IMG/VR virus record: IMGVR_UViG_3300021364_000094
Coordinates: 1 to 32,931 of that record
Source of the DNA: a virus
Strand: one strand, 5' to 3'
Length of the DNA stretch: 32,931 nucleotides
Shown here in pieces: positions 2,963 through 29,147 of this stretch (positions are counted from its first letter, which is position 1; each line of letters opens with the position of its first letter). A program made the position numbers and the translations under genes. A model generated the notes under the pieces. It searched no databases and had not been told where the DNA came from. It was given only the letters and a program-made list of their open reading frames with translations.

Positions 2963-3117
2963 GACCAGAGACCAGAAAAGCAATGGAAATGCTTTGGAGT
3001 GCCAAATGGAACCTCCCAAAAGCAGCAAAACACTGCAATCTCACTAACAAAGAGATGAAAATTACATTTAATGAGTATTGTGCATTCCATCCACCCACAT
3101 TTAAGGTAGAAAAATGA
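2959..3117 (+). CDS. Small helical protein, possible helix-turn-helix, TTG start
   Basis: A 52-residue frame starts with TTG at 2959, overlapping the previous stop, and ends at TGA, overlapping the ATG of the next gene. The product begins (M)RPETRKAMEMLWSAKWNLP and continues PKAAKHCNLTNKEMKITFNE. The pattern helix / AAKHCNLT / helix resembles a helix-turn-helix unit (turn near the Asn-Leu-Thr), so DNA binding is possible but unproven. An alternative start is the ATG at 2983, which would lose eight residues of a continuous, protein-like N-terminus. The overlaps on both sides support the TTG start and translational coupling. Confidence 0.72.
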   Translation: MRPETRKAMEMLWSAKWNLPKAAKHCNLTNKEMKITFNEYCAFHPPTFKVEK

Positions 3118-3620
3118 CTAAACCTCTCCTGTTCATATCACAAGATAAGGAGATGGCACTCATTCAGGAGATGTCATACAAGATCAAGAGAGCGGGATGG
3201 GACATCCACCCCTCAAAAACTTGTTTTTTGTGTGTATCTCCTGATTATTCTAGTATTGTTACTCAACATCTCTCCCATTCACTCACCATGGATGGGGAGA
3301 TTTTTCATGTTGAGGCAGTCAATGTGCCATTTCCTGATGAATCTGCAGAAAATTACAGAGTTAACTTTGAAATTAACTATGCAGATTGGGTTCTTGACTG
3401 GGAAAACTTCGTATTATGCGAAGCAGGCGTAATCCGAGGAGGTAATTATACCTGGATTACAGAATCTATGAAGAAATTTAGTAAGAAAAATTACTACACC
3501 TTGTCTCTTTGTGAGAATATTGGTAGTAAGTATAAGAGTGACATGGTTTCTCTCTATTATGATGATAGTAAGGAAGATTTACATTTTTGGTGGGAACAAC
3601 CTAATAATCATTGGCGATAA
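3114..3620 (+). CDS. Conserved-looking cytoplasmic protein of unknown function
   Basis: The product is 168 residues, with no signal peptide or membrane segment. Its composition differs from the structural genes around it: it has several Cys and Trp, and mixed alpha/beta character. A conspicuous segment near residues 94-112 reads WENFVLCEAGVIRGGNYTW. It has the hydrophobic strand, acidic residue and Gly-Gly turn seen in phosphoribosyltransferase-like or Rossmann-type folds, but the match is too weak for a call. The C-terminus is rich in aromatic residues (DLHFWWEQPNNHW). The gene overlaps the upstream 52-residue gene by ATGA, so it belongs to the unit driven by the sigma70-type promoter at 2755. 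A role in the infected cell rather than in the virion is inferred from that context. Confidence 0.78.
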   Translation: MTKPLLFISQDKEMALIQEMSYKIKRAGWDIHPSKTCFLCVSPDYSSIVTQHLSHSLTMDGEIFHVEAVNVPFPDESAENYRVNFEINYADWVLDWENFVLCEAGVIRGGNYTWITESMKKFSKKNYYTLSLCENIGSKYKSDMVSLYYDDSKEDLHFWWEQPNNHWR

Positions 3621-3833: not shown

Positions 3834-4226
3834 ATGCCATCTATATCTAAAAAATTCGTTGATCTTAATCCCAATTTCACCAAACATCCCGTTACTGGTG
3901 ATATTGGGGTATTGAAAAATGAAGATGCAATTAAACAGTCGGTAAAAAATATTGTTATGACCCAGTTAGGTGAAAAGTTTTTCGATCCTCTGTTTGGTAC
4001 ATCAAGTAATAGATTATTATTTGAAAATTTTAATAGTATTATTTCTGATCAATTAGCATTAGAGATTGAAGATGCGCTTAAATTTTATGAACCTAGGGTA
4101 AATTTTGACAATATTGATATCGTTGAAGATGTAAAAAATAATTCTATTAAATTTAATGTAAATTTTACGATTATTGGTTCTCCTTTAGATCAGCAAGCAA
4201 TTAGTCTCATTCTGGAAAAAGTATAA
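3834..4226 (+). CDS. gp25: Baseplate wedge protein gp25
   Basis: The product is 130 residues, close to T4 gp25 (132). gp25 is the small wedge protein with a lysozyme-like name but no proven enzyme role. It joins gp6 at the inner baseplate and primes sheath assembly. The family pattern is clear: an N-terminal strand region, then QLGEKFFDPLFG at about 45-56, LLFENFNS at about 62-69 and the hallmark acidic-Pro-Arg in YEPRVNFDNIDI at about 88-99. The C-terminus is a conserved beta-hairpin ending in a helix. The ATG follows AAAGAGACTGAAA. The stop codon shares one base with the gp6 start (TAATG), matching the tight coupling of these genes in T4-like phages. Confidence 0.95.
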   Translation: MPSISKKFVDLNPNFTKHPVTGDIGVLKNEDAIKQSVKNIVMTQLGEKFFDPLFGTSSNRLLFENFNSIISDQLALEIEDALKFYEPRVNFDNIDIVEDVKNNSIKFNVNFTIIGSPLDQQAISLILEKV

Positions 4227-6082
4227 TGGCATTCAATCAAGTTACTAATTTAGATTTTGAGGACGTAAAGCAAAGTTTACGGGAGTTCATGCGTTCTTCC
4301 GAAACTTTTACTGATTATAATTTTGAAGGATCTGTATTATCTCAATTTATTGATGTATTAGCGTATAATACGTATTACAGTGCATTAAATGCTAACTTAG
4401 TTGCTAATGAGGTATTTTTAGATTCTGCATCAATCAGAGAGAATGTTGTATCTCTTGCAAAAAGTGTTGGATATGTTCCAAGTGGTGCTACGGCATCAAA
4501 AGCAGTAATAAATCTTGATATATCATTACCAGCAGCATCATCAGTTACTCAATTAACTTTAAAGCAAGGAAGTGCGTTAGTTGGGAAGAATGATGAGGGT
4601 TCTTTTGTCTTTACACCTGCTAATGATGTTACGAGACAAGTATCATTAAATTCAGCAGGACGTTCGATTATATCATTTGAAGATTTAGAAATATTTCAAG
4701 CAACGCCACTTTCACTTACTTATACTGTAAACGATTCAACTGTTCAAAGATTTATTATTCCTGATAGTAATTCAGATGTTAACTTAATTCAAGTTAAAGT
4801 GAATGAAATTAATAATTCAATAATTGAAACGTATAAACCGATAACAGATATTACAACATTAAATAGCACTGATAGATCATATTTTGTTCAAGAAAATAAA
4901 AATGAACAATATGAGTTAATTTTTGGTGATGATACTTTTGGTAGAAAATTAAAAAATGGTGATGTGGTTGAGATTACTTATTTTATTACTGATAAAACTT
5001 TAGGTAATGATTGTTCTGAGTTTAGTTTTACTGGTAGACTTATTGATCAAACAGGCAATGGATATTTTGCAACAGAACCAAGTGTTAGAGTAGTATCTCC
5101 ATCTTCTGGAGGATCTGAACCCGAAAGTATAACATCTATCAAATATCTTGCTCCAAGAAGTTATTCTGCACAGCAAAGGGCAGTTACAGTTAATGATTAT
5201 GAGTATTTGGTCAAGACTAAACTTCCTGGTTTAGAATCATTAACGGTATATGGCGGCGAAGATTCTTCTCCACCCCAATACGGAAAGGTATTTGTTGCTG
5301 CAAAACCTTTTGGTGCAGATAAATTAACAACTACTGCTAAATTAAATCTAATTAAAGATTTAAAACAATTTACAATTTTAACTGTTGTTCCTACAATTGT
5401 AGATCCTTCTTTTTTATACATTGATATTGAAAGTTATGTATATTTCAACTCTAAATTAACTAAAAAAACACCTCAACAACTTCAATCTTCAATTAGGGGG
5501 TCTATATTACAATTTGGAAATACACAAGAACTTAATAAATTTAACAGTAAATTTAAATATAGTAAACTAGTATCATATATTGATGAAGTTGATCCTGGTA
5601 TAACTTCAAACATTACAAGAATTAGAATTAATAAAAGGTTAGAAGTTTCTAGTAATATTTTTGCTTCTTATGAAATTTGTTATGGTAATAGAATATCTTC
5701 TAATACAAATTTAACTTCCAATGGATTTAAATTGACTGGTCAACCAGATAATTATGTATTTTTCTTTGAAAAGTATGATGATGCTGGAACAGTAGCAGTA
5801 TATAGAAATGAGGGTAGTGAGAAAAAGTATTTCAGCACTTCAGTTGGAAGTATTGATTATGAAAAAGGTGAAATAAATATCAATAACATCAACATTAATA
5901 GTGTAGTTGGGGATGTTGACTATATTTCTTTATCAGTCATTCCAGCATCAAATGATATTTTAGGTTTGAGAGATTTATATCTATTATTTGATCCTTCTAA
6001 TGTAAATGTAAACGTGATTTTAGATGAATTATCTTCATCATCAAGATCAACGGGTGTCGGACAAATTCCAGTATCTAGTTAA
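4226..6082 (+). CDS. gp6: Baseplate wedge protein gp6
   Basis: The product is 618 residues against about 660 in T4. gp6 forms the inner baseplate ring, dimerising around gp25 and holding gp7 and gp53. It is related to baseplate J proteins of other contractile systems. The N-terminus is typical: LDFEDVKQSLREFMRS, then DYNFEGSVLSQFIDVLAYNT and VANEVFLDSASIRENVVSLA in the first 80 residues. A central J-like region contains GDDTFGRKLKNGDVVEITYF (near 230-250) and AVTVNDYEYLVKTKLPGLES (near 318-337). The C-terminal third is beta-rich and ends in a Ser-rich tail. The gene starts inside the gp25 stop, and the giant gp7-like gene starts 3 nt after its own stop. Confidence 0.95.
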   Translation: MAFNQVTNLDFEDVKQSLREFMRSSETFTDYNFEGSVLSQFIDVLAYNTYYSALNANLVANEVFLDSASIRENVVSLAKSVGYVPSGATASKAVINLDISLPAASSVTQLTLKQGSALVGKNDEGSFVFTPANDVTRQVSLNSAGRSIISFEDLEIFQATPLSLTYTVNDSTVQRFIIPDSNSDVNLIQVKVNEINNSIIETYKPITDITTLNSTDRSYFVQENKNEQYELIFGDDTFGRKLKNGDVVEITYFITDKTLGNDCSEFSFTGRLIDQTGNGYFATEPSVRVVSPSSGGSEPESITSIKYLAPRSYSAQQRAVTVNDYEYLVKTKLPGLESLTVYGGEDSSPPQYGKVFVAAKPFGADKLTTTAKLNLIKDLKQFTILTVVPTIVDPSFLYIDIESYVYFNSKLTKKTPQQLQSSIRGSILQFGNTQELNKFNSKFKYSKLVSYIDEVDPGITSNITRIRINKRLEVSSNIFASYEICYGNRISSNTNLTSNGFKLTGQPDNYVFFFEKYDDAGTVAVYRNEGSEKKYFSTSVGSIDYEKGEININNININSVVGDVDYISLSVIPASNDILGLRDLYLLFDPSNVNVNVILDELSSSSRSTGVGQIPVSS

Positions 6083-6084
6083 AG

Positions 6085-9000
6085 ATGTTTAACGATTTAA
6101 GAGTATCAAATTCAATTTCTGGACAAGTACCTTCGTACTTTGTACAAGAATATCCAAATTTTGTAAATTTTTTAAAAGACTACTATAGGTTTTTAGAAAC
6201 TAATGGTAATTCTTTAGATTTATTGCATGGTATACAAGATTTAATTGATATTGAGACTTATACTGGAGTAGATTATACAGCTGTATTGAGGGAAGATATT
6301 GATGCTGACGATGAAGAAGTTTTAGTTAATGGGCACGTCAAATATCCATTGACAAATGGATTACTTAAAATTAATAATGAGATAATTTTTTATAAAACAT
6401 TTAGTTATGAAGTATTTAATGATATTAAATACACAAAATTTACTGGTTGTGTTAGAGGATATACTTATAATACTCTGACAATTGAAGAGGGATTTAAACC
6501 TAATGTTAAAACTACACCAGAATCGCATACTGCTGGTGCAACAGTAGAGAATCAATCATATACTTATTTACTTTACTTTTTAGAGCAACTTAGAGAACAA
6601 TATCTTTCAGATTTTCCTAAAGGTATTTTAGCAGATAATTTAGAAAAGGGACTTAATATTAATAATCTTTTAAAAAAGATTAAAGATTTTTATCTGACTA
6701 AAGGAACTCCTAGGGGTATTGAATTTTACTTTAAGTTCTTATTCCAACAAAAATCAGAAATTCGTAATTATAGAGACTCTATTTTTACACCTTCAGATGC
6801 AATTTATGAAGATAAGGTAGTTGTCAGATTAGAAAATTTAGATTCTTTTACTGTTCCAAATTTAATATTAAAAGAACTTGTACAATCAGATAATACTTTT
6901 ACAATTTTATCATTTGAAAGTTTATATTCAAATAAAACGTTAGCACTTGAATATGAAATTTCAACTCCAGAAAAATTACTACCTACGAAATTTGCTAAAA
7001 TTATAAGCACTCCCAATTTAGAGAAAAAATATATTTACGTTGATAGTACTGAAGGATTTCCATCAAATGGAATTTTAAAGTATAGAGATTTCTTCATCAA
7101 TTATACATCAAAACAATCTAATTATTTTGTTTGCGATGATACTATTCAAAGAATATCTACATTCTTTAATGGAAATTTAACTCATTCTCTTGGTGAATAT
7201 GTTTATGATTTAAATACACTTTGTGTATTAAAAGATTTTCCAGAATTTTATTTTTCTGTGTATACTGGAATTGCAAATGTTAGTACTACAAAAAATATTG
7301 GATATGTTCCCGGAGATATAGGATTTGTCAGTCAAGTTACATTATCCAATGATCCAATTCTCACTTCTTGGGTATATAATGATATTTTACCTGCAAGGAC
7401 AAATAATGGATTACTATCATCAGTAACAAATTTATATTTTTCCGATACTGCAGCATTTTTGAGTGTATCAAAAGTTCCATTTTCACAACACCCTGGAGAA
7501 GGGTCCCCTCAAAATAATGAGTTGGAAATGGGAGCAAATAGATTATCTTTAATTGATCGTTTTGTAAAAATTCCAAGAATATTTAATTTAAGAGATTTTA
7601 GCAATAGAGAAAATACTATTGCACAATTTCCAGTTGGATTAATGATTGATGGTACTCCATTAATGAACTGGAAAAATAATAATGTAGTAACTCTTGGTAG
7701 AATAGAGAGCATTGATATTCAAAATGGTGGATCTAATTTTAATATAGATTCTCCTCCAATAATTGTGGTCAATGAACCAACTACTGACGAAAATGGGAAA
7801 GAAACAGCAGAATTAGAATTAAAAATTTCTGGTGCAGTTTCAGAGGTAAATATTGAAAATGGTGGATCTGGATATCCAAAAAACGTTTCTATTTTTGTAA
7901 AAAAATCTGATAATAATGATCCAAATGTTGATTTTAGGCAAGCAATTTTATCTGCCGTAGTTGTTGGAGGTAAGATTACACGAGTTAAAATTATTGATCC
8001 TGGATCTGGATATACTGATACCCCATCTATTGAAATAACTCCAGATTTTACACAGGCAAATTCTGCAGGAACACCTGCGGATATTTCAGCATTGGTTGAA
8101 GGTAGTATCTATAGAGTTGATTATAAAACTGATGGTAATAATAATCCAATAAAAGGTAAAAAATATACACAAAATCCATCATATGAACTAAAGAAAGGTT
8201 TCGGTGCAACTGCTGTTCCAATTATTTCTAATGGTAAATTAACAGATATTACTTTAATTAATGAAGGTAAAGAATATAATTCACCTCCAAAAGTTAATGT
8301 AATAGATATTTCTGGATCGGGAATTGGTGCTAAAGTTATTTCTAAAATTATTAATGGTAAAGTAACTGATTTTTCAATAATTAACTCGGGAATTAATTAT
8401 AATGAAAATACTACTAGACTAGAAATAGTCGAATCTGGTGAGGGAGACCTTATCAATTTAAATACTCAAATTTGGACTCCTGTTAATAATTATTTTCAAC
8501 CAATTAATAGCGATGGTTCCTTTATTGAAGAAATTGATTCTGAAAATAATATAGTTACCTATAATATTTTAGGATTTCCAAAAAATTTAAAATATCATGA
8601 TAAATCTACAAATACTTATCAAAGTATAGAATTTGGAACAGAATCTGATAATCATTCTCCAATTATTGGTTGGGCATTTGATGGATCTCCAATTTATGGT
8701 CCATTTGGATTCCGAGAAGCATTAGATTCCGGATCTGAAATTGCTAAAATGACCAGTGGATACCGCAAAAAGACTTCTTTTGATAGTATTAGACAACAAG
8801 TAGGTGGCCTCGGTCTTGCTCAATTTGAAATAGGATATTTTGCAGAAGACTGGGAGTGGATACCTGATCCATTAAACTTAGATCAAGAAAATGGTAGATT
8901 TTGCGTTACACCAGAATTTCCAAACGGTGTTTATGCATATTTTGCTACTATTGAAACTTTAAATCCAGAAACTCAAAATAAAGAAGGATTTCCATATTTT

Positions 9001-12000
9001 GTAGGAAGTAAGTACAAGGGATCTACATTTAATGAATTTAATACTAAAGAAATTCGTAATCTTTTTGAAGAAAATATAACTAAATTTATAAGTAATAACG
9101 ATACAGTATCAATTAAACCAGTAGATCCTGGATTATTTGCAGTTGAGTCTATTCCAGAATCTACGGACTCAAAATTATCTTCAATTGAAGTTTCTAATGG
9201 TGGTGATTTATATAAATTTGGTGATAAAGTAGTATTTGATAATACTGAAACGCAAGGTTTTGGTGCTTCTGCATTTGTTAGTGTTTTGAAAGGAAGAAAT
9301 GTAGTAAATGTTTCAAAAGAATTATACGATTATATTGAATATGAAGATGAAAGTTCTCCTATCACTGAAGGTACGGTACTAAAAACTAATAACGGTTATG
9401 AAGGTACGGTATACAATGTAAATCAAACTAGAAAACAAATTTATATTGATAGGACTGCAGGAACAACAATTGATGAGGGTTTTGAAATTTTTGATGATCA
9501 AAATTTAACAGATACTCTTATTCAAACAAAATTAACTGAAACTATTAATAATAATTTGTTTACAACTTCTTTGACTAATGATGTTGGAAGAACAAGTTTA
9601 CTTATAACTGTAAATAGTGTTTCTAATATTTCTGTAGGTGATTACATAAAAATTGAAGATGAGTATATAAAAGTTATTAGAATTAACGGAACAGAATTAT
9701 TTGTTATTAGAGGAATTAATGGCACAATATCAAAATCATATAGTGCTAATGATAGTGTGAAAATTTTAAATAAACTAAACGTGTTTAGTTCTGTAGAATT
9801 TCTCATTAACGATGTTATTAAAATTGAAAGTGAAGTTTTTAGAATCGTTAACATATTATCTACTAGAGAATCTAGTATCCAAGGAATTAATATTATTAAT
9901 GGTGGAAGTGGTATCAGTGCAGGTACATATTACTTGTATTTTGATGGAATTTTACAAACAAATGGTGGTAATAATGCAACAACAGTTACTGTTTTAAATG
10001 GTTCTGTTACTCAATTAACTTTTGATGAGAACACTTCTATATCTGATAATCCTTTAGTGCAAATTGGAGATAGCGCAACATATGCCTCTGCTAACTTTTT
10101 AACTGGAATTACAATTAAAGCTTCAAAATTTAGACATGTTCTTGATGTAGAGAGAGCTATATTCTCTACTACTGCTCAGCAACATCTTTCTGGTCTTGGC
10201 GTATCCGGACAAAACTTCATTAGTGCTACTGTAACAAAATTTGAGCAAGATAGAATTTTAACTACTATTGGAGCACAGAGCAATTTACTTGTTCCTGATG
10301 ATGAGATTACAGTTACTGCATCTTTACAAACATTAGTTTCTAAAGAAATTACCATATCAAATAGTCAAATTTTAGTTGATGGCACTGCAGTAAATAGTTT
10401 AGATCTTTTTGAAGGATATTCTTACACATTTACTGCTAACGGATTGAAATTTGAGTTCTTTGGAATTTCTACCGATAGTAACAATAATTTTATTCCAGGT
10501 AAAAGATATTTTGATGTTACTGTTGAAGAAGTATTTGATAATAGTGGTGAATTAGAGACATTTACTATTAAACCTAAAGCATCAGATTTAACCCAGTATT
10601 TCTTAGTTATTACAGACCCAGATAACCCAACAATCACTAAAAATATATTAATAAACACTATTAGTGAACCTATAAATGGATTATATAAGATTATTCGATC
10701 AACTTCTAGTGATTTTACATTTTATACAGAAACTGATCCAGGAAATCAATTTATATCAAATTATAATTCACAAACAATTAAATATACTACAACTTCAACC
10801 ACTGCAAAAGGACCAATTGAGTTTGTTACTTTAACTTCTGGAGGATTTTCCTATGTTACTCCACCTGGAGTTTCTACTGTAACTTCAAATGAAGGTATTG
10901 GTGCAATTTTAACTCCAAAAACAAATAGTATTGGTGTTATTAATAATATTACCAATAATTTTTCTGGATATGGATTTAGTTCAGATTTTAGACAAAAACC
11001 TGTAGTAAGATTTCCACAAATTTCTCAAATAGATAATATTTTTACTGTTTCATCTGCAAATCTTATTTCTGGTGGTGAGGATTATCTATTTACTCCAAGA
11101 GTTGTCGTAACTGGTGGTGGATTATCAGATAATGACCCTTCACATGCTGTTATTGAAGCAACAGCTGCAAAAACTGGGATTAGAGAAATTTTAAATTTAG
11201 ATTTAATAAGTAGAGGTCAAAAATATAATTCTGCACCAAATATTATTATTGAAAAATATTATTTTGTAGAATTAAATGGTTCAGGTAGCAGTACAACGTT
11301 AACATTTAAATTTCCATTTAGTCAGTATATTAGACAAGATGATAAATTTAAAATAAGAGGTTATTATTTAAATAATAATGGTGAAGAAATATTTGCTGAA
11401 AGTAATACTTTTCTCGCAAATTTACAAACAACTACAATTACATGTAGAGAGTCTGGTTCTAATGTAGATTTAGATCCAAGAACTACCGGAACTTTAGCAA
11501 CTGTTAATCAAGATATTTTAAGATACGAATTTATTTCTGAAAGTAGAGTTGCCACTGCTAATGCAATTGTAACTAAATCTTCTTTCACTCCTTCAGAAAA
11601 AATTATATTTAATGTAGAAGAAGGTATAGATAAATTTGGATTTGTATCACGTAATTTTGGTTGGCAACCTGCAAATTCAACTTTACGTATTGAGAATTTT
11701 AATTATCAATTCCAAGTTGGAGATACTGTTTTTGGAGAAAGTAGTAAATCTGTTGGAGTTATTTCTAAAGTAGAATCTTCTTCGTCAATTGGTGAACTTG
11801 GAGTAACAGTAAAAAAACCAAAAACTTTCTTAACTAAAAATTCTTTCTTAGGATCAAATTTTGAAAAACTACAAGATAGTTTTAGATATCAGAGATTTGC
11901 CTATGAGATTGGTGTGGACACTCCATTAAGTAAGTGGAAAGAAAATTATAAACAAACAGTTCATCCCACTGGTTATAATTTATTTGCGAGAACTACTATT

Positions 12001-15000
12001 AGAAATGATGTTAGAATTGGAGCAGTTGAGGATGATCCAAACAAAAACGGTATTACAGTTATACCAAATCAAGTTATTTCTACTAGCGTAGCACAAGAAA
12101 TTTCTATTAGAAGAAAATATAATTATCTTCTCACTCAAAATGTAGGGGATGTAGAAGTTAAAGTTTTAAATAAAGAGTTAACTGATGTTAAACAAACAAA
12201 AGACGCGATTGTTGCGGTTTTTGAAGATTTTTCTGATCAATTTGATGGTATAAAAACTTCATTTTTACTTAGGGCAATTGATCCGTTAAATCCTGAAATA
12301 GATAATCAACCTAATTATATTGAAAATTATGACGTAGATCAAATGCTTGTCTTATTAGACAATGTAATACAAACTTATGGATCTTCTTGGTTTGTAACTG
12401 ATTCAGATAAAAATATTAGATTTACTTCAAGTCAATCTCAAGGAGAATTGCTACCTGAAGGTGAAAAGATAATCTATAGAAAATTTAATGATTCAACCGT
12501 AATTCACGAATCTTCAGAAGTTGTAAGTTCTGCAGGATCTGTGTTCCCAATCAGAGATAATAGTGGTAGTGCTTGGCCATCAGGAACGTTTTCTTCAATA
12601 GATAACGACAATTATCTTGTTTTTATTGATGGCATTTGTCAAAATAATTCTGTATTTACTATATCTAATACTAATAATGGTCAGATTGATTTTGGTTCAG
12701 ATATTTTACCTGTTGATACTCAAATATCTGTAAGATATATTTCAGGTCTTTTAAAAAATGAATTTACGTCAGGTTCAGTTACTGCAAATACTGCAGTAAC
12801 TTTATCTAATAAACCTTCATTGTCAACTTCTAAACAAAGTTACTTCGTATTTGTAGACGGAGCATTAATGACAAGTGGAGATGACTCGATCTATGATATT
12901 GATGCTAATAAAGATATTGTATTTAATGTAAGTTTTAATTATGATTCATTGGTTGTAGTTATTGATCCTTTGGGAGTTGCTTTAACTACACAAGAAGATG
13001 ATATAATTGCAGAAAAATATTCTTATAAAATTGAGGATGGTCAACTTGAAATTCCAGTAGGAACTGTTATTAATCCAGAAGAATATATTTTAGAAATTGC
13101 GGGTGTAGTACAAACTCCATATTTGGTATATGAAATTTTGTCTAGTGGTGAAAGAAAAATTAACTTTACAGAACCACCTAGAAGATTTCTTTCTGAAGAA
13201 AATGATCCAAATACAGATGATGATGATATTCTTGTCGGACGCCAATTTATAGGTTTATTATATCAAAGAAGTGATCCAACAGGATCTGGCGGAACTACTA
13301 AAAATTATCAATTTGATGACATTAGTCAAAATATAATTCAGATTAAAGAAAATTTAGATAACTTTATGGTTGGAGATAATATTAGTAGAAGTGATGGTTT
13401 ATCTCTTGCAACTATTGTTGATAAAAAATCTACAAGTACTAAAATTATTGCAGAAAGTCAATTTGTTAATGCATCTTTTGCCCCAAATGATACTGGAACT
13501 ATAACTGTAAATTCTCTTAAAAATATATTTGAGGGAGATAGATTTGAATTTAATGGAGGAATAGGATTAACAAGTATAGATGATGATGAAATTGAAATTA
13601 CGTCAATTAATTATAATACAAATGTTATAACTATTACAAATATTTCTTCAAATACTTTATCAATAACCATTGAAATTGATGATAACTTTAATGTAAAACA
13701 CAATACTATTGAAATTTCAAATCTAGAAACAAGTATTGCTAACAAAGATGATGCCTTTGTAGATGGAAGTGTAATTTTAAGTGGTGCTGCAAATCTTCAA
13801 TCAACTAATGTTAATAGTACTATTGACAATACTGTCGGTCTTAGATTAGATTCTGCAATTGCACGAGTGCAGGCAGGAAACGTCTCCAATGGTGCTTTAA
13901 CTGGTAATGCTGATATTGTTAATGGAGGATCGTTGTACGCCTCACCACTACCAGAGATTAAACTTATTGGTGGTTCTGGTAGTGGAGCAACTATTAATGC
14001 GACTGTTGTTGGAGGAGTGATTACTCAACTTGCATTAAGTGGTGGAACTGGGTATGATGCTGCTGATTTACCTGAATTAATAATTGGAGGACCTCCTGCT
14101 AGTGTCCTTGAAGTTCCTACCGGAGATGGTGCATCATTTAGCATTGGTGATTATATTTTTATTAATGAAACTGAGGTTGTAAAAATTACTGGGATATCTA
14201 CAGATGACCTTACTGTAAGTAGAGGTGAATTGGGGACTAATGTTCAAGATTTTTATATTAAAACCACAAACATTAGAAAAGTTATTCCATATCAAGTTAC
14301 TGCTAAATCTTTTAGAAGAGGATTTGATGGAGATAAAACTTCATTTAAACTTACTGAAGAATTCCGTGCGACAAATATTCCAGTTGACTCTGATATATTT
14401 GTAATTTTAAATGGTGTCTTACAAAAAATTGGTGCTAATGACTCATATACACTATCTGAATCTGGTGGTGAAATTTTTATCAACTTTACTGAGGCACCAA
14501 AATTTAGTAGTCCTTGTAATATATTCTATCTTGGTCAAACCATATCTGTTCAAAATATTTCAGATAAATTTAATGGTGTAAGGAAAGTATTTGAACTTCG
14601 TGACAGTTTAGGTGAAATTTTTAGTTTTGTTGCCAAAGATCAAGCAAACGCAAACATTTCTGCAAATTTAATTATTTTTATTGATGGTGTATATCAAATA
14701 CCATCAGTAATATCTGATGATAGAGAACCTGCATACTCAGATTCTTTATCATCTTACAGATTGTTTGGTAGTTTAATTGAATTCTCTGCACCTCCTTCAC
14801 CTGGGGCTACATTTGAAGCATTTATCTATGTCGGTTCAAATACTGATTATGAAACTATTGATATTGAACCTGCAGTAGAATCTGGAGACTTTATTGATCA
14901 AAGTAATGAAAGAAGTGAGAGAGAAGTTATTAATATTATCAGTTCAAATACATTAGCAGTTACTGATAGTTTAGGTCAAATTGAAAATATATCTGGAAAT

Positions 15001-15714
15001 ATCCCTCAATTTACAGATTTAATACAATCTGAACCTGTAAGAGAATCTCTAAGATCAAGAAGACTATTATCTTCTCAAGTTGCAACAGGATTATCATTCC
15101 CAACAGTAGGTAGGGTGTTACTTACTAGTACAGTAGCATCAATTGAGATTGAACCTATTGATAATTTTATTCCAACAACTCCAGATCCTGGAACTGATAC
15201 ATTTACTTTTGAACTTGCAGCATCTACGAATTTCCCAGTTAGATTCTTAAATTCAAAATATACAAATGCTACATATGGAGCAACTCCAAGTGATAATGAT
15301 ACCCTTTCAAATGTTACTGTTGGATATGATTTACCTTTCAACAATATCATTCATTTACAGACCGGCGCACCTACAATATTTGATGAATCATCATTGGGTT
15401 CTGAGATTGTTGAAAATGGTAAAGTTATTTCTAGACCAATAACTAAACAAATTTTAAGAGTCACTTATGGACCAACTACATTTGAAGAATTTGGAGCAGA
15501 TGTAGTTAGATGGGAACCTGATAATGATAATATTGGTGGTAAATTATATTTAAAATTAGATGATACCTCAAATCCACCTCTAATTACTCATCAAATTAAA
15601 ATTACATACCCAACTGATCCAATTACAAGTAACAATTTTAATATTGACGATGATGATTTGATTTCTGAATATCAAACATTATCAGTTGGAGATAAATTTT
15701 ATTATACAACATAA
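6085..15714 (+). CDS. gp7: Giant gp7-like baseplate wedge protein, 3209 residues
   Basis: The position between gp6 and gp8 is that of T4 gene 7, but T4 gp7 is about 1030 residues. From memory, two parts match the C-terminal half of T4 gp7. Residues 1-250 contain YFVQEYPNFVNFLKDYYRFL and DFYLTKGTPRGIEFYFKFLF. Residues about 1945-1975 contain SKWKENYKQTVHPTGYNLFA. Between them lie about 1,700 extra residues. These include repeated GGxGY-type units (near 543, 593, 635, 726, 766, 1035, 1269, 1582, 1661, 1706), a YHYH-like domain at about 855-960 and a 'GDYIKIEDEYIKV ... RGINGT' unit near 1175-1230. After 2045 come repeated 'FIDGVxQ ... INF' beta-domains to about 2920, with further GGxGY units near 2611 and 2651. 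A wedge role is inferred from order and these matches; the added domains probably face outward. Confidence 0.82.
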   Translation: MFNDLRVSNSISGQVPSYFVQEYPNFVNFLKDYYRFLETNGNSLDLLHGIQDLIDIETYTGVDYTAVLREDIDADDEEVLVNGHVKYPLTNGLLKINNEIIFYKTFSYEVFNDIKYTKFTGCVRGYTYNTLTIEEGFKPNVKTTPESHTAGATVENQSYTYLLYFLEQLREQYLSDFPKGILADNLEKGLNINNLLKKIKDFYLTKGTPRGIEFYFKFLFQQKSEIRNYRDSIFTPSDAIYEDKVVVRLENLDSFTVPNLILKELVQSDNTFTILSFESLYSNKTLALEYEISTPEKLLPTKFAKIISTPNLEKKYIYVDSTEGFPSNGILKYRDFFINYTSKQSNYFVCDDTIQRISTFFNGNLTHSLGEYVYDLNTLCVLKDFPEFYFSVYTGIANVSTTKNIGYVPGDIGFVSQVTLSNDPILTSWVYNDILPARTNNGLLSSVTNLYFSDTAAFLSVSKVPFSQHPGEGSPQNNELEMGANRLSLIDRFVKIPRIFNLRDFSNRENTIAQFPVGLMIDGTPLMNWKNNNVVTLGRIESIDIQNGGSNFNIDSPPIIVVNEPTTDENGKETAELELKISGAVSEVNIENGGSGYPKNVSIFVKKSDNNDPNVDFRQAILSAVVVGGKITRVKIIDPGSGYTDTPSIEITPDFTQANSAGTPADISALVEGSIYRVDYKTDGNNNPIKGKKYTQNPSYELKKGFGATAVPIISNGKLTDITLINEGKEYNSPPKVNVIDISGSGIGAKVISKIINGKVTDFSIINSGINYNENTTRLEIVESGEGDLINLNTQIWTPVNNYFQPINSDGSFIEEIDSENNIVTYNILGFPKNLKYHDKSTNTYQSIEFGTESDNHSPIIGWAFDGSPIYGPFGFREALDSGSEIAKMTSGYRKKTSFDSIRQQVGGLGLAQFEIGYFAEDWEWIPDPLNLDQENGRFCVTPEFPNGVYAYFATIETLNPETQNKEGFPYFVGSKYKGSTFNEFNTKEIRNLFEENITKFISNNDTVSIKPVDPGLFAVESIPESTDSKLSSIEVSNGGDLYKFGDKVVFDNTETQGFGASAFVSVLKGRNVVNVSKELYDYIEYEDESSPITEGTVLKTNNGYEGTVYNVNQTRKQIYIDRTAGTTIDEGFEIFDDQNLTDTLIQTKLTETINNNLFTTSLTNDVGRTSLLITVNSVSNISVGDYIKIEDEYIKVIRINGTELFVIRGINGTISKSYSANDSVKILNKLNVFSSVEFLINDVIKIESEVFRIVNILSTRESSIQGINIINGGSGISAGTYYLYFDGILQTNGGNNATTVTVLNGSVTQLTFDENTSISDNPLVQIGDSATYASANFLTGITIKASKFRHVLDVERAIFSTTAQQHLSGLGVSGQNFISATVTKFEQDRILTTIGAQSNLLVPDDEITVTASLQTLVSKEITISNSQILVDGTAVNSLDLFEGYSYTFTANGLKFEFFGISTDSNNNFIPGKRYFDVTVEEVFDNSGELETFTIKPKASDLTQYFLVITDPDNPTITKNILINTISEPINGLYKIIRSTSSDFTFYTETDPGNQFISNYNSQTIKYTTTSTTAKGPIEFVTLTSGGFSYVTPPGVSTVTSNEGIGAILTPKTNSIGVINNITNNFSGYGFSSDFRQKPVVRFPQISQIDNIFTVSSANLISGGEDYLFTPRVVVTGGGLSDNDPSHAVIEATAAKTGIREILNLDLISRGQKYNSAPNIIIEKYYFVELNGSGSSTTLTFKFPFSQYIRQDDKFKIRGYYLNNNGEEIFAESNTFLANLQTTTITCRESGSNVDLDPRTTGTLATVNQDILRYEFISESRVATANAIVTKSSFTPSEKIIFNVEEGIDKFGFVSRNFGWQPANSTLRIENFNYQFQVGDTVFGESSKSVGVISKVESSSSIGELGVTVKKPKTFLTKNSFLGSNFEKLQDSFRYQRFAYEIGVDTPLSKWKENYKQTVHPTGYNLFARTTIRNDVRIGAVEDDPNKNGITVIPNQVISTSVAQEISIRRKYNYLLTQNVGDVEVKVLNKELTDVKQTKDAIVAVFEDFSDQFDGIKTSFLLRAIDPLNPEIDNQPNYIENYDVDQMLVLLDNVIQTYGSSWFVTDSDKNIRFTSSQSQGELLPEGEKIIYRKFNDSTVIHESSEVVSSAGSVFPIRDNSGSAWPSGTFSSIDNDNYLVFIDGICQNNSVFTISNTNNGQIDFGSDILPVDTQISVRYISGLLKNEFTSGSVTANTAVTLSNKPSLSTSKQSYFVFVDGALMTSGDDSIYDIDANKDIVFNVSFNYDSLVVVIDPLGVALTTQEDDIIAEKYSYKIEDGQLEIPVGTVINPEEYILEIAGVVQTPYLVYEILSSGERKINFTEPPRRFLSEENDPNTDDDDILVGRQFIGLLYQRSDPTGSGGTTKNYQFDDISQNIIQIKENLDNFMVGDNISRSDGLSLATIVDKKSTSTKIIAESQFVNASFAPNDTGTITVNSLKNIFEGDRFEFNGGIGLTSIDDDEIEITSINYNTNVITITNISSNTLSITIEIDDNFNVKHNTIEISNLETSIANKDDAFVDGSVILSGAANLQSTNVNSTIDNTVGLRLDSAIARVQAGNVSNGALTGNADIVNGGSLYASPLPEIKLIGGSGSGATINATVVGGVITQLALSGGTGYDAADLPELIIGGPPASVLEVPTGDGASFSIGDYIFINETEVVKITGISTDDLTVSRGELGTNVQDFYIKTTNIRKVIPYQVTAKSFRRGFDGDKTSFKLTEEFRATNIPVDSDIFVILNGVLQKIGANDSYTLSESGGEIFINFTEAPKFSSPCNIFYLGQTISVQNISDKFNGVRKVFELRDSLGEIFSFVAKDQANANISANLIIFIDGVYQIPSVISDDREPAYSDSLSSYRLFGSLIEFSAPPSPGATFEAFIYVGSNTDYETIDIEPAVESGDFIDQSNERSEREVINIISSNTLAVTDSLGQIENISGNIPQFTDLIQSEPVRESLRSRRLLSSQVATGLSFPTVGRVLLTSTVASIEIEPIDNFIPTTPDPGTDTFTFELAASTNFPVRFLNSKYTNATYGATPSDNDTLSNVTVGYDLPFNNIIHLQTGAPTIFDESSLGSEIVENGKVISRPITKQILRVTYGPTTFEEFGADVVRWEPDNDNIGGKLYLKLDDTSNPPLITHQIKITYPTDPITSNNFNIDDDDLISEYQTLSVGDKFYYTT

Positions 15715-15744: not shown

Positions 15745-17190
15745 ATGGCAGCGTTATTAACAGACAGATTTCGCGTAGTTTTAGCGGAAAACTTTAGAAG
15801 TAGAGTGCAACTTGGAGAGAGTGCAAGTCTCTTAAGTGCTTTTACTGCAGGGGGAGGGGATCCTACAGAATTTCCAATTGATTTATGGTTATTTTTTGCC
15901 AGATCAGATTCATGGTCTAGTGGTATACCTGATCCTCTTGATAATCAAGAAGGAAATTTTAACATTTATGACCAAATGTTAGGATTGAAAAAAGTTGAAT
16001 CTTCTAGTATTAGAGGTGTAATTCGTAATCAAACCTGGAGTAGTGGTACTGTTTATGATATCTATAGACATGATTATGGTTCATCATATACAGATGCAAA
16101 TAATGTTTCACGATTAGTTTTAGGAAGAAGATCAGAATCTAAATTATATGAAACTAAGTTTTATGTCGTCACTTCAGAATTTAAAGTATATAAATGTTTA
16201 AGTAATAACAATGGAGCAAATTCTATTGAGGAACCTACATCAACCTCAAGTGCTCCATTTACAACTGCTAGTGATGGATATTTGTGGAAGTATATGTACA
16301 GCGTAAGTGCTTCTGATTTTGAAAAATTTAAAACAGATGATTATATTCCAATCCCACTCCAAAGTCAGTTAGTTCCTGGTAATGAAATTAACCCATCTTC
16401 AAATTTTGGAGGATCTATTTACAATGTAGTTGTCGAGGCAAAAGGACTTGGATATACAATTGACGATCTTTTTACCGTTGAAGGAGATGGTAGTGATGCC
16501 CAAATTCAAGTAAGTTCTGTTGGTGTAAATGGTGAAATTAATGCGGTTAAAGTTATTAACCCCGGACAATCTTACACTTATGGAGAGTTGGTCCCAGTCA
16601 CAGGGCAGAATTCTGGATCTAATGCACAAATACAAGCAATTTTTTCACCAAAAGAGGGGATTGCTAAAGATATTGGATTGGAATTAGGAGCATATAGACT
16701 GGGATTAAATGCAAAATTAAATTCTGCAGACTTTCCATTTGAAAATGATTTTTCTGTAGTTGGATTAATATACAATCCGATTATTAGCGATGATGCAACT
16801 AGTATTGCAATTGGTACATATAGAATGAAACTTCAAGCAGCACTATCACAAGATCCTGCAAATGACTCACTTATATCTTCTGCTGACAATGGTGCTAGTG
16901 GTAAATTAATTGAATACAAAGTAATTGATAGTGTCCCTTATATCTGGTTTACACAAGAAAATATTCTTAATGAAGGTTTAAATTCAGCAAATGAAAAAGT
17001 TTCATTTATTCCCGGTGCTCAAATTACAGTTGGTGGGACTATATCTGGTAATATAAGCAATGATTCTGATGCTATTTCTCAACCCCAAATTACAAGAGGG
17101 TCTGGAGAAATCATCTACATAGATAATAGGGATCCAATTTCCCGAGCAGCGGACCAATCAGAAGATTTTAAAATTATATTAGAGTTCTAA
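15745..17190 (+). CDS. gp8: Baseplate wedge protein gp8
   Basis: gp8 is a wedge protein that forms a dimer linking gp7 and gp10 in the T4 baseplate. The product is 481 residues against 334 in T4. Family features recalled from T4 gp8 are clear: LFFARSDSWSSGIPDP near 49-64, the DGYLWKYMYSV box near 177-187 and the C-terminus GSGEIIYIDNRDPISRAADQ followed by an acidic strand and a final Phe. The extra length is largely a block at about 228-310 made of two GGxGY-like repeats (EAKGLGYTIDDLFTV and VINPGQSYTYGELVPV), inserted before the conserved LNAKLNSADFPF region. It has its own exact late promoter at 15718. The stop is 1 nt from the next start. Confidence 0.93.
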   Translation: MAALLTDRFRVVLAENFRSRVQLGESASLLSAFTAGGGDPTEFPIDLWLFFARSDSWSSGIPDPLDNQEGNFNIYDQMLGLKKVESSSIRGVIRNQTWSSGTVYDIYRHDYGSSYTDANNVSRLVLGRRSESKLYETKFYVVTSEFKVYKCLSNNNGANSIEEPTSTSSAPFTTASDGYLWKYMYSVSASDFEKFKTDDYIPIPLQSQLVPGNEINPSSNFGGSIYNVVVEAKGLGYTIDDLFTVEGDGSDAQIQVSSVGVNGEINAVKVINPGQSYTYGELVPVTGQNSGSNAQIQAIFSPKEGIAKDIGLELGAYRLGLNAKLNSADFPFENDFSVVGLIYNPIISDDATSIAIGTYRMKLQAALSQDPANDSLISSADNGASGKLIEYKVIDSVPYIWFTQENILNEGLNSANEKVSFIPGAQITVGGTISGNISNDSDAISQPQITRGSGEIIYIDNRDPISRAADQSEDFKIILEF

Positions 17191-26264: not shown

Positions 26265-29147
26265 ATGGCAGCACCAAAAATACGCTTGAGGCGTTCAGCA
26301 ACTGCTGGAAACGCTCCCACTACTTCGCAGATAGAATTAGGTGAAGTAGCGATTAATACTCATGATGGTAAAATATTTTTAAAAAGAGATCAGAGTGGCA
26401 CAGAAAGAATTGTAGATGTCACTGCACCTCTTGAAGCAAACGAACCCATGGGGCACAATAATGCCTCAGAAAGTACAATATCATTTACTGATGCAACTAG
26501 AGTATTTTCTATTGCACCCGTATCAACTAGATTCGACGTTTGGTGTCAAGGTATTAGATTTGCATTTACCTCGGCACAAACAACTACAATACCAAATACA
26601 AATGGATTGTATTATATTTACTTTGATGGCGATGGAGTTTTGCAAAATAAAGCAGCAAGTTCTGCAGATATAGATTATAAAACAGAAGTTCCAACTGCAA
26701 TTTTATATTGGAATGGAAGTTCTGCTGCTTTTATATTTGATACCAGACATGGAATTACTTTAGATTGGCAAACTCATGAGTATTTGCAAAAAACTAGAGG
26801 TGCAGTAGTTGCATCTGGATTTACTGCAGTAAGTTATTCTACTTCTGGTGATGGCACTACAAATAGTCATGCACAATTTGGTTTAGGTGATTCTGGGGTA
26901 TTTTATAATGAAGACTATAAAGTTTCTATAAACCATGCTTCATCCCCTTCAAATTTATTTGAACAAATTATATCTGGTGCTGGGCAGTTTCCAATTTTAC
27001 GTAGGGATGGAACTGGTGGTCAATGGACAAGAGATGCTGCTACTTCATATCCTGTAAAATTTTCTACAGGTAATCTTATTGAATATAATGTTTCTGGATC
27101 TTCTTGGTCTTCTTCTCAAGTAACTGATGGAAATTATGCAGTTTATTTTATAGTTGCTACTTCGGATATTAATGCTCCTATAGTTTCTATTCAGGGGCAG
27201 GGAGATTTTGCAACTTTAAATGATGCAGTAACATCGGAGTTTGAAGATTTAGATCTGGGCAATGATGATCTTACAAATGCCCCAAAATTTCCTCGTAATG
27301 ATGTAAGACCATTATTTAAATTAATTTTTGAGGCAAATAGTACTTTCACTAATGCACCAAAAGCACGTTTAGTAAATATATTAGATCTAAGACAAAATGT
27401 TTCTGTTGAATTAACAGGAGCACAAGGATCGTCAATTGCTGTAACTGCTCCTGAATCTAATATCATATATGTAAGTAAAGATGGAGATGATGCAAATATT
27501 GGTGCTACTTTAGGGACAGCAAAAGCTACAATTAAATCTGCACTATCAGTTGCATCTGCTGGAACTGTTGTTAGAGTTTATCCTGGCGAATATACAGAGA
27601 ATAATCCAATTATAATGCCTGCACAAACTTCCATTGTTGGTAGTAGTTTAAGAGAAGTTACACTTAAACCACAGAATGGAAATACTGATTTTATCTATGT
27701 AAATAATGGTTGCTATATTTCTGATTTATCATTTAATTCATCATCCTCTAATAATGGTGATGTAATTTCATACAATCCAAGTGATCCTCCATATATTGAT
27801 CAATCTCCATATATTCAAAATTGTACCAATTTTATTACTGGGTCAACCGGTCTTCATATTGATGGAGACGATGCGATTGGGGATATTAAATCAATGGTAG
27901 TTGATAGTTTTACTCAATTTAATTCTGGAGGAGTTGGATGTAAAATTAGCAATGAGGGTTATGCTCAATTAGTTTCTATGTTTACTATATGCACAGAAAC
28001 AGCAGTAGAATGTAATAATGGTGGAAGTTGCGACTTAACAAATTCAAATTCATCTTTTGGAACTAAAGGTTTAGTTGCTGATGGTGTAAGTCCTAAAAAA
28101 TATACGGGCACAGTGGCACAAGCGTCAAGTGCTGGAGATAATACAATTAGAGTAAATATTGCAACTACTCAAAGAAGTGTTTCTACAGCATCTTATGCAG
28201 AAACTACTGGAGTATTAACTGTAACTACAACAGCAGCACATGGGTTTGAAGTGGGAATGGATGTAAAGATTGAAAACCTTACCTTCAGTTGCACAAGTCC
28301 AAGTGGTACTGCAGTATTCCCATCAGGTAATTATGGTTATATTTTTAAAGTAGAATCTACTCCATCTACAACACAATTTACAGTAAATGTCGGTACATCC
28401 ACAATTGCACACACTTATGTATCGGGAGGAACTGCTGAAATAGAAGCAGTACGTCCATTTGCAGGACAAGTAGTTTTCTTTGATACTTTATATTATGAAG
28501 TTACTAAAATTAATGTTACTAATGGGGGTAGTGGATACGATCCAAATAATCCTCCTACAGTAACACTTGCAAGTTCTCCAGAAAGTTGGGGTATTGACGC
28601 CGAGGCAATCGCAGAGGTATCAAGCACTGGAGTAGTAACTTCTATTACTGTAACTTCTAATGGTAGGGGTTATGGTTCAACTATAGCAAACCCAACAATT
28701 TCTGCACCAACTTCTGGAACTACAGCAACAGCAACAGCACAATTAAGTCCTTCATATTTTATCGTAGAATCTTCATTTGAAACTTCTACAGATGTATATG
28801 ATATTACATTTTCTAACGAAGTTCCTATTGCATTGACAACCAGTAGCGTTGCTAATTTTTACAAACAAAGTAGACTTTTAGCATCAAGTCATTCATTCCA
28901 ATATATAGGATCAGGTACTAATATTAATACTGCTCTCCCCCAAACTGGAGGAGTTCCAATCCCAGAAAATGAAACTATTAATCAAAATGGTGGATTAGTA
29001 GTTTTTACAAGCACGAATGAATCTGGAAACTTTAAAATTGGTGATGGCGTAGTTATAGATCAAGCTCTGGGTCGAATTTCCGGTCAATCATATTCACAAA
29101 GTCTATTTTCTCAAGTAACACCTTATATCATCGCACTAGGAGGTTAA
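26265..29147 (+). CDS. Tail fiber / tailspike-like protein with beta-helix region, 960 residues
   Basis: The N-terminus MAAPKIRLRRSATAG plus QIELGEVAINTHDGKIFLKR is a classic phage fiber attachment segment. Residues about 404-480 (VSKDGDDANIGATLGTAKAT ... VRVYPGEYTENNPIIMP ... GSSLREVTLKP) match the start of a right-handed parallel beta-helix of the pectate-lyase type. Short strand repeats follow to about 610. Such helices bind or cut surface sugars; no catalytic residues can be assigned here. Residues about 645-730 (GVLTVTTTAAHGFEVGMDVK ... VNVGTSTIAHTYVSGG) and a GGxGY pair near 748-800 are repeats seen in other marine phage structural proteins. It probably contacts the cell surface. The codons for its last two residues and stop overlap the AGGAGG site of the next gene. 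Confidence 0.87.
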   Translation: MAAPKIRLRRSATAGNAPTTSQIELGEVAINTHDGKIFLKRDQSGTERIVDVTAPLEANEPMGHNNASESTISFTDATRVFSIAPVSTRFDVWCQGIRFAFTSAQTTTIPNTNGLYYIYFDGDGVLQNKAASSADIDYKTEVPTAILYWNGSSAAFIFDTRHGITLDWQTHEYLQKTRGAVVASGFTAVSYSTSGDGTTNSHAQFGLGDSGVFYNEDYKVSINHASSPSNLFEQIISGAGQFPILRRDGTGGQWTRDAATSYPVKFSTGNLIEYNVSGSSWSSSQVTDGNYAVYFIVATSDINAPIVSIQGQGDFATLNDAVTSEFEDLDLGNDDLTNAPKFPRNDVRPLFKLIFEANSTFTNAPKARLVNILDLRQNVSVELTGAQGSSIAVTAPESNIIYVSKDGDDANIGATLGTAKATIKSALSVASAGTVVRVYPGEYTENNPIIMPAQTSIVGSSLREVTLKPQNGNTDFIYVNNGCYISDLSFNSSSSNNGDVISYNPSDPPYIDQSPYIQNCTNFITGSTGLHIDGDDAIGDIKSMVVDSFTQFNSGGVGCKISNEGYAQLVSMFTICTETAVECNNGGSCDLTNSNSSFGTKGLVADGVSPKKYTGTVAQASSAGDNTIRVNIATTQRSVSTASYAETTGVLTVTTTAAHGFEVGMDVKIENLTFSCTSPSGTAVFPSGNYGYIFKVESTPSTTQFTVNVGTSTIAHTYVSGGTAEIEAVRPFAGQVVFFDTLYYEVTKINVTNGGSGYDPNNPPTVTLASSPESWGIDAEAIAEVSSTGVVTSITVTSNGRGYGSTIANPTISAPTSGTTATATAQLSPSYFIVESSFETSTDVYDITFSNEVPIALTTSSVANFYKQSRLLASSHSFQYIGSGTNINTALPQTGGVPIPENETINQNGGLVVFTSTNESGNFKIGDGVVIDQALGRISGQSYSQSLFSQVTPYIIALGG
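29138..29143 (+). promoter_or_regulatory. Strong ribosome binding site AGGAGG inside the previous gene
   Basis: A full AGGAGG sits 7 nt before the ATG at 29151. It is formed by the last sense codons (GGA GGT) of the 960-residue fiber gene. It is the best Shine-Dalgarno in the fiber region, and it suggests strong or coupled translation of the 108-residue protein. Confidence 0.75.

Follow-up and report, generated by a model that had tools for sequence, protein, structure and literature searches.

Gp7-type baseplate wedge proteins have been described in very different sizes. In phage T4 (PDB 5IV5, 5HX2), gp7 lies between gp6 and gp8 and carries two core blocks, in order, in its C-terminal half, behind an N-terminal half of ~640 residues. 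In gp17 of Vibrio phage XM1, a T4 gp7 ortholog of 242 aa, domain I consists of residues 1-79 and 107-133, with one tail spike held by the loop 80-106 and another by the C-terminus 201-242 (PMC10457771); in phage A-1(L), the long tail fibre is anchored by an insertion of gp31 together with a C-terminal loop of gp32 (PMC10966104). Cyanophages encode giants annotated as gp7 or baseplate wedge initiator, namely S-PM2p084 of S-PM2 (3,048 aa) and the proteins of P-HM1 (4,446 aa), S-SM2 (4,156 aa), S-SSM7 (3,007 aa) and P-SSM4 (7,312 aa), and one relative, ORF122 of S-CREM2, is a proven virion protein with 91 unique peptides, which shows this family to be part of the virion (PMC10665884). Existing cyanophage annotations are mixed, some reading gp7 or wedge initiator and others virion structural protein, and according to a comparative paper, cyano- and pelagimyophages lack T4 gp7 and have VrlC as its substitute (PMC7029224).

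Here, we analysed a window of 32,931 nucleotides (the whole of IMG/VR record IMGVR_UViG_3300021364_000094), in which ORF 6085-15714 (+) encodes a protein of 3,209 aa with no internal stop. We consider it likely, at a probability of roughly 0.8, that a marine, Kyanoviridae-like myovirus here encodes its gp7-type (single-copy, BW2-type) wedge subunit, and that the two peripheral outlets of this protein have expanded into large scaffolds rich in beta structure. Three additions enlarge the core: a beta domain of ~95 residues, ~1,630 residues at the position of domain V, and a tail of ~1,160 residues.

Gene neighbourhood

The gene order gp25-gp6-gp7-gp8-VrlC in the window matches that of Pelagibacter phage HTVC008M, with the VrlC-type gene in the same place as the VrlC of that phage:

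3834-4226 (+): gp25-like wedge subunit / sheath initiator (PF04965)
4226-6082 (+): gp6-like wedge subunit, the expected partner of gp7 (PHROG 219, E 1.6e-175; PF21379)
6085-15714 (+): gp7-type baseplate wedge ORF, 3,209 aa (PHROG 2885 'baseplate wedge subunit', E 4.5e-207; collinear relatives)
15745-17190 (+): gp8-like wedge subunit, 481 aa, enlarged (PF09215, PHROG 438; beta repeat in common with gp7); the T4 gp8 gene taken for size comparison is L001 10152-11156
17192-23407 (+): VrlC/DUF4815-type large protein, 2,071 aa (PF16075; PHROG 358)

In the wedge operon, ORF 6085-15714 occupies the place of a gp7-type (BW2) member, flanked by gp6 and gp8. An assembly fusion as the origin of the ORF was ruled out by collinear copies of 3,120-3,258 aa on independent contigs. 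Upstream of gp25, positions 2423-2758 encode a PAAR-motif spike-tip protein, as is likewise the case in P-HM1; ORFs 306-1673, 1677-2426 and 3114-3620, also upstream of the wedge genes, gave no informative family matches, the last of them matching PHROG 29004, a family with no function assigned.

None of the T4-type families PF21427, PF21428, PF21456 and PHROG 964 is among the matches listed for the window protein, although they match T4, and residues 1-640 of T4 gp7 found nothing in the window beyond a chance-level match on the other strand. The protein thus falls outside a strict T4-type definition of gp7, based on these family models plus the N-terminal half of ~640 residues, and the absence of the T4 N-terminal half, already suspected in the preliminary description, is borne out. 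A single-sequence search of the PDB with the whole protein returned chance hits only.

Two core blocks in T4 order

For profile comparisons, 15 sequences were aligned for the first block (A1) and 15 for the second (A2), both sets excluding T4, and an alignment of six Straboviridae gp7s (A3) was the target for A1 and A2 in hhalign. The protein can be divided as follows:

6100-6264 (+): N-terminal helix-turn-helix of the core, residues 6-60 (PF23786 at 8-39; invariant or near-invariant A1 columns; helices predicted at 6-54, pLDDT <50)
6265-6549 (+): lineage-specific beta domain in the core, residues 61-155 (A1; confident beta fold, pLDDT mostly 75-85)
6550-6828 (+): second core helices and 'DFYxxKG' block, residues 156-248, corresponding to T4 gp7 ~723-760 (BLASTP, A1 profiles)
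6829-11727 (+): large insertion between the core blocks, residues 249-1881 (survey of gp7s; root of a compact relative superposes on T4 domain V, Z 9.1)
7687-8484 (+): beta-repeat region with 'GGSGY'-type repeats, residues ~535-800 (pLDDT ~80-90; related stretches in gp8 and ORF 26265-29147)
8590-8955 (+): YHYH domain (PF14240), residues 836-957, motif YAYF (E 1.6e-24)
11728-12234 (+): second core block, residues 1882-2050, corresponding to T4 gp7 ~843-929 (BLASTP, A2 profiles; peak conservation at 1921-1980, 'HPTG')
12235-15711 (+): C-terminal tail, residues 2051-3209, with repeated 'FVDG/LNGV' beta modules (collinear relatives, survey of gp7s)

BLASTP of T4 gp7 against the window protein gave two top segments, pairing residues 201-226 with T4 733-758 and 1921-1979 with T4 847-903 (E = 0.006). 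Overall, ~190-227 aligns with T4 ~723-760 and ~1920-1980 with T4 ~847-903, in the same order, and both counterparts are neighbouring parts of the T4 C-terminal half; the aligned blocks lie ~1,690 residues apart here vs ~100 in T4. Pfam PF23786, modelled on a compact wedge subunit of 284 aa, is split likewise, its N-terminus matching residues 8-39 and its C-terminus DNA 11854-11991 (~residues 1924-1969). The N-terminal helix-turn-helix of the core bundle is therefore present by sequence (PF23786, A1), as it is in low-confidence predicted helices, and would be expected to join two gp6 copies in that bundle.

In hhalign, A1 matched A3 at T4 ~723-760 (E = 1.3e-8, probability 95.5) and A2 matched it at T4 ~870-900 (E = 7.6e-5, probability 62), compared with best values of 0.08 and 0.014, respectively, in 40 column shuffles of A3; nothing was found with a reversed control. 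When A1 was searched against all PDB sequences, T4-type gp7 alone fell below E = 0.1 (8.7e-5 and 2.7e-4; next match 0.16), and in the whole T4 genome it found a single place, inside gene 7 (E = 2.9e-7). A2 alone found no match in the PDB and none in the T4 genome at E 0.001, so what ties the second block to T4 is the comparison of profiles together with the pairwise alignment and the block order. The sequence comparisons accordingly show homology of the first trifurcation block (DFYxxKG) with T4 ~723-760 and, with a more modest score, of the second block, which follows it, with T4 ~847-903.

The gp7-like identity proposed in the preliminary description is upheld by the two ordered block matches, the shuffle controls and the gp6-gp8 position, and the recognisable parts are indeed far apart, separated by inserted domains; both blocks, and not one end only, matched Straboviridae gp7s. 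The figures of that description need adjustment: what 1-250 has in common with T4 is mainly ~190-227, plus N-terminal helices seen through other phages, and 1945-1975 is better given as ~1920-1980; the more than 1,200 residues said to follow are ~1,230 after residue 1980 but 1,159 after the profiled second block (1882-2050).

These results also bear on a reading in which the resemblance goes no further than motifs, the ORF encoding a baseplate protein of another kind, with gp7 truly absent and replaced by VrlC. The published statement of that absence and substitution (PMC7029224) and the silence of the four T4-type family models speak for it; against it stand two independent ordered blocks, the shuffle controls, the position between gp6 and gp8, the domain V fold of a relative (see below), and VrlC itself, which has a gene of its own downstream of gp8. 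We regard this reading as largely refuted and very improbable. S-PM2 and HTVC008M each have a gp7 carrying both blocks, separate from VrlC, and the claim that gp7 is absent from cyano- and pelagimyophages is therefore contradicted. As these phages are among the commonest viruses of the ocean, it matters that gp7 is present in both, swollen or misannotated, beside VrlC.

Architecture across phage gp7s

The survey set comprised 85 gp7s in which both blocks could be placed, using HMMs trained with T4 included, which are thus not independent for T4 itself. Block order was unchanged in all 85, with a gap of 83-2,751 residues: (i) 83-92 residues in T4, Citrobacter phage Miller, a Vibrio phage and Desulfovibrio phage 7757, (ii) 345 in Melnitz-1, 501 in Caulobacter phage Cr30 and 784 in Sinorhizobium phage phiM7, (iii) 1,633 in the window protein, and (iv) up to 2,751 in marine contigs. 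The gap measures ~466 residues in HTVC008M. The beta domain of ~95 residues within the helix-turn-helix occurs in cyanophage-type gp7s and, according to A1, is missing in Cr30 and phiM7. P-SSM4 and similar contigs have a further insertion, of ~500 residues, that interrupts the first block.

Compared with the window protein, T4 gp7 has the N-terminal half in addition, a gap of ~84 residues (domain V) instead of 1,633, and a tail of ~103 residues instead of 1,159. The Desulfovibrio phage 7757 gp7 (586 aa) shares with the window protein both blocks and the lack of the T4 N-terminal half, but has a gap of 92 and a tail of 250. Cr30 and phiM7 are likewise devoid of that half, which places the first 640 residues of T4 gp7 outside the common core; the core is the constant part of gp7, since a phage such as the Desulfovibrio one has a 586-aa gp7 without them. 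Encoded at L114 6980-8740, and combining a T4-sized gap with no T4 N-terminal half, this protein makes a useful minimal gp7. A small constant core with outlets provides an annotation rule for wedge proteins of 586 to more than 7,000 residues, and the outlets indicate where in the baseplate fibre docking should be sought.

The cyanophage giants resemble the window protein in gene place, both core blocks, the beta insert in the helix-turn-helix, a YHYH domain in the insertion and a long C-terminal tail; they differ in an N-terminal part only ~25-32% identical and in the lengths of insertion and tail, and P-SSM4 has its extra insertion inside the first block. Kyanoviridae relatives of the window gp7 span 3,000-7,300 aa, several being already annotated 'gp7'. 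A giant gp7 is therefore the rule among the Kyanoviridae cyanophages examined, not an oddity, and the window gp7 is a divergent new member, not a new kind. In HTVC008M, I899_gp055 (1,016 aa; NC_020484.1 33435-36485) is annotated 'head closure Hc2', but it shares with the window protein the gene order, lying between gp6 and gp8, and both blocks, and is probably a misannotated gp7. XM1 gp17 appears to have the same two outlets, the loop inside domain I and the C-terminus, an equivalence taken from its published description and not from an alignment; with lengths of 27 and 42 residues, they bind the spikes directly, whereas those of the window protein are far larger.

Structure models and domain V

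AlphaFold2 was applied to a compact IMG/VR relative of 896 aa (L035, whose gp7 is 99% identical to that of Melnitz-1) and to residues 1-1110 of the window protein, hence to its first block only; neither model is confident in the N-terminal core. In the compact relative, the helical core was poor and the inserted beta region confident. The best PDB matches of this model were T4-type gp7s (Foldseek E 6.5e-4; VIA Z 9.1 over 86 residues at 3.3 A), and residues spanning 235-617 fell on the contiguous stretch T4 765-851, which is domain V. By profile comparison, window residues 230-306 match region 223-298 of the relative (E 2.9e-8). Since the modelled residues 235-617 superpose on contiguous T4 residues, domain V appears to be the place in which the insertion lies.

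The model of window residues 1-1110 has low overall confidence (mean pLDDT 58.5). It shows helices at 6-54 and 157-220, as expected, a confident beta domain at 62-156 and likewise confident beta repeats at ~535-800. Foldseek gave no significant match for this low-confidence model and did not list T4 gp7, and the best VIA matches concern small beta domains. The domain V barrel between the two blocks, seen in the compact relative and linked to the window protein by profile, did not come out in the model of the window protein itself.

In structure searches, a repeat module (window residues 586-672; residues 363-505 of the compact relative) resembles T4 tail sheath gp18 ~99-187, with Z 8.5 in the relative, 5.7-6.1 in the window and 21-26% identity. 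Profile comparison does not support this resemblance, which is kept as a lead only.

Inheritance and content of the insertion

Identity to three collinear relatives (L010, L016 and L017) is 80% over the first 60 residues, 62-64% in the second block and ~61% for gp6; the insertion, at ~39%, remains collinear with theirs along ~1,626 aligned residues. For VrlC, identity to L016 and L017 is 53%. The window gp6 is ~39% identical to the best known phages among the matches listed. The 46.6-kb L016 record contains no full-length counterpart of the fibre-like ORF 26265-29147, but this record may be a fragment, so that a homologue could lie outside it. Given the collinearity at 39% over this length, and the fibre-like ORF without a full counterpart in L016, the insertion is inherited with the wedge, evolving faster than the core and not being exchanged as fibres seem to be.

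Residues 836-957 match the YHYH model at 87.4 bits against a cut-off of 25. Among the best 80 YHYH loci in IMG/VR, the gp7 first block is in the same ORF in 76 and the YHYH signature is found there in 72; the domain is nearly constant in giant gp7s. YHYH domains have been predicted to be tail-associated metal-dependent hydrolases (PMC7824862) and have been linked to host recognition (PMC7029224). Together with this near constancy, these reports would fit insertion and tail that are themselves receptor-binding or enzymatic, for instance with the YHYH domain as a tail hydrolase, and not a scaffold. We judge this unlikely: the Y-H-Y-H motif was not found in the window domain, where the name-giving histidine positions read YAYF (the motif position within the Pfam model being inferred), and the published hydrolase prediction is therefore not transferable; nor was a hypervariable receptor-type segment seen in the gp7 identity profile. 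Many close bacterial relatives of the gp7 YHYH domain, largely from Bacteroidetes, also read YAYF. A loss of the motif specific to gp7 was accordingly rejected in favour of a subfamily trait.

In the favoured reading, that of a gp7-type wedge subunit with two enlarged outlets, the two core blocks would, by homology with T4, fold together and with two neighbouring gp6 copies into the wedge heterotrimer, comprising core bundle and trifurcation. The domain V insertion and the C-terminal tail would be the outlets pointing to the baseplate rim, and may form large arms, rich in beta structure, as a scaffold carrying or bracing fibres and peripheral proteins. By analogy with XM1 and A-1(L), the enlarged outlets may act in docking these. 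Insertion and tail look like scaffold rather than receptor-binding tip because they are inherited collinearly with gp6, gp8 and VrlC while downstream fibre genes seem to be swapped. Earlier talk of a rebuilt wedge overstated the case, as the wedge core is conserved and the additions lie mainly at the two outlets.

The baseplate periphery

It had further been suggested that the extra domains replace other peripheral proteins such as gp10 or gp11. A broader version is that the giant gp7 took over the jobs of T4 gp10, gp11 and gp12, perhaps also gp9, in one polypeptide. No Kyanoviridae phage tested matches the GP11 or gp12-mid model, S-PM2, P-HM1, S-SM2 and P-SSM2 lack the gp9/10 N-terminal domain, and a review reports cyanomyoviruses to be without g10, g11 and g12 (PMC2984593). 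However, the same losses accompany the small gp7s of Cr30, phiM7 and the Desulfovibrio phage; the GP11 model is absent in 10/10 non-Straboviridae phages tested, including those with gp7s of 586, 767 and 1,006 aa, and P-SSM4 keeps a gp9/10-type N-terminal domain alongside its giant gp7. In the phages tested, gp9/10-type domains come and go independently. The gp12 control is weak, Miller, a T4 relative, being likewise without a match, and VrlC and gp8 are equally good candidates. We hold such a takeover to be improbable; the data allow a replacement of gp10 or gp11 without singling it out, and as a specific claim it is not supported, GP11 being absent whatever the size of gp7. The low-confidence model of residues 1-1110 gave no match to a gp10/gp11-like fold.

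Slightly less doubtful, and offered tentatively, is the idea that the Kyanoviridae gp7 combines the wedge core with most of the peripheral baseplate, insertion and tail being the arms that T4 builds from gp9-gp12, with beta modules in common with gp8 and fibre genes. If so, the work of the T4 rim would have moved into gp7 and not been lost.

The 'GGSGY'-type beta repeats recur within the insertion and are also found in gp8 (E 5.6e-6) and in the fibre-like ORF (~5e-5). A beta-repeat module is common to gp7 (7687-8484), gp8 (15745-17190) and ORF 26265-29147, as if copied between baseplate genes.
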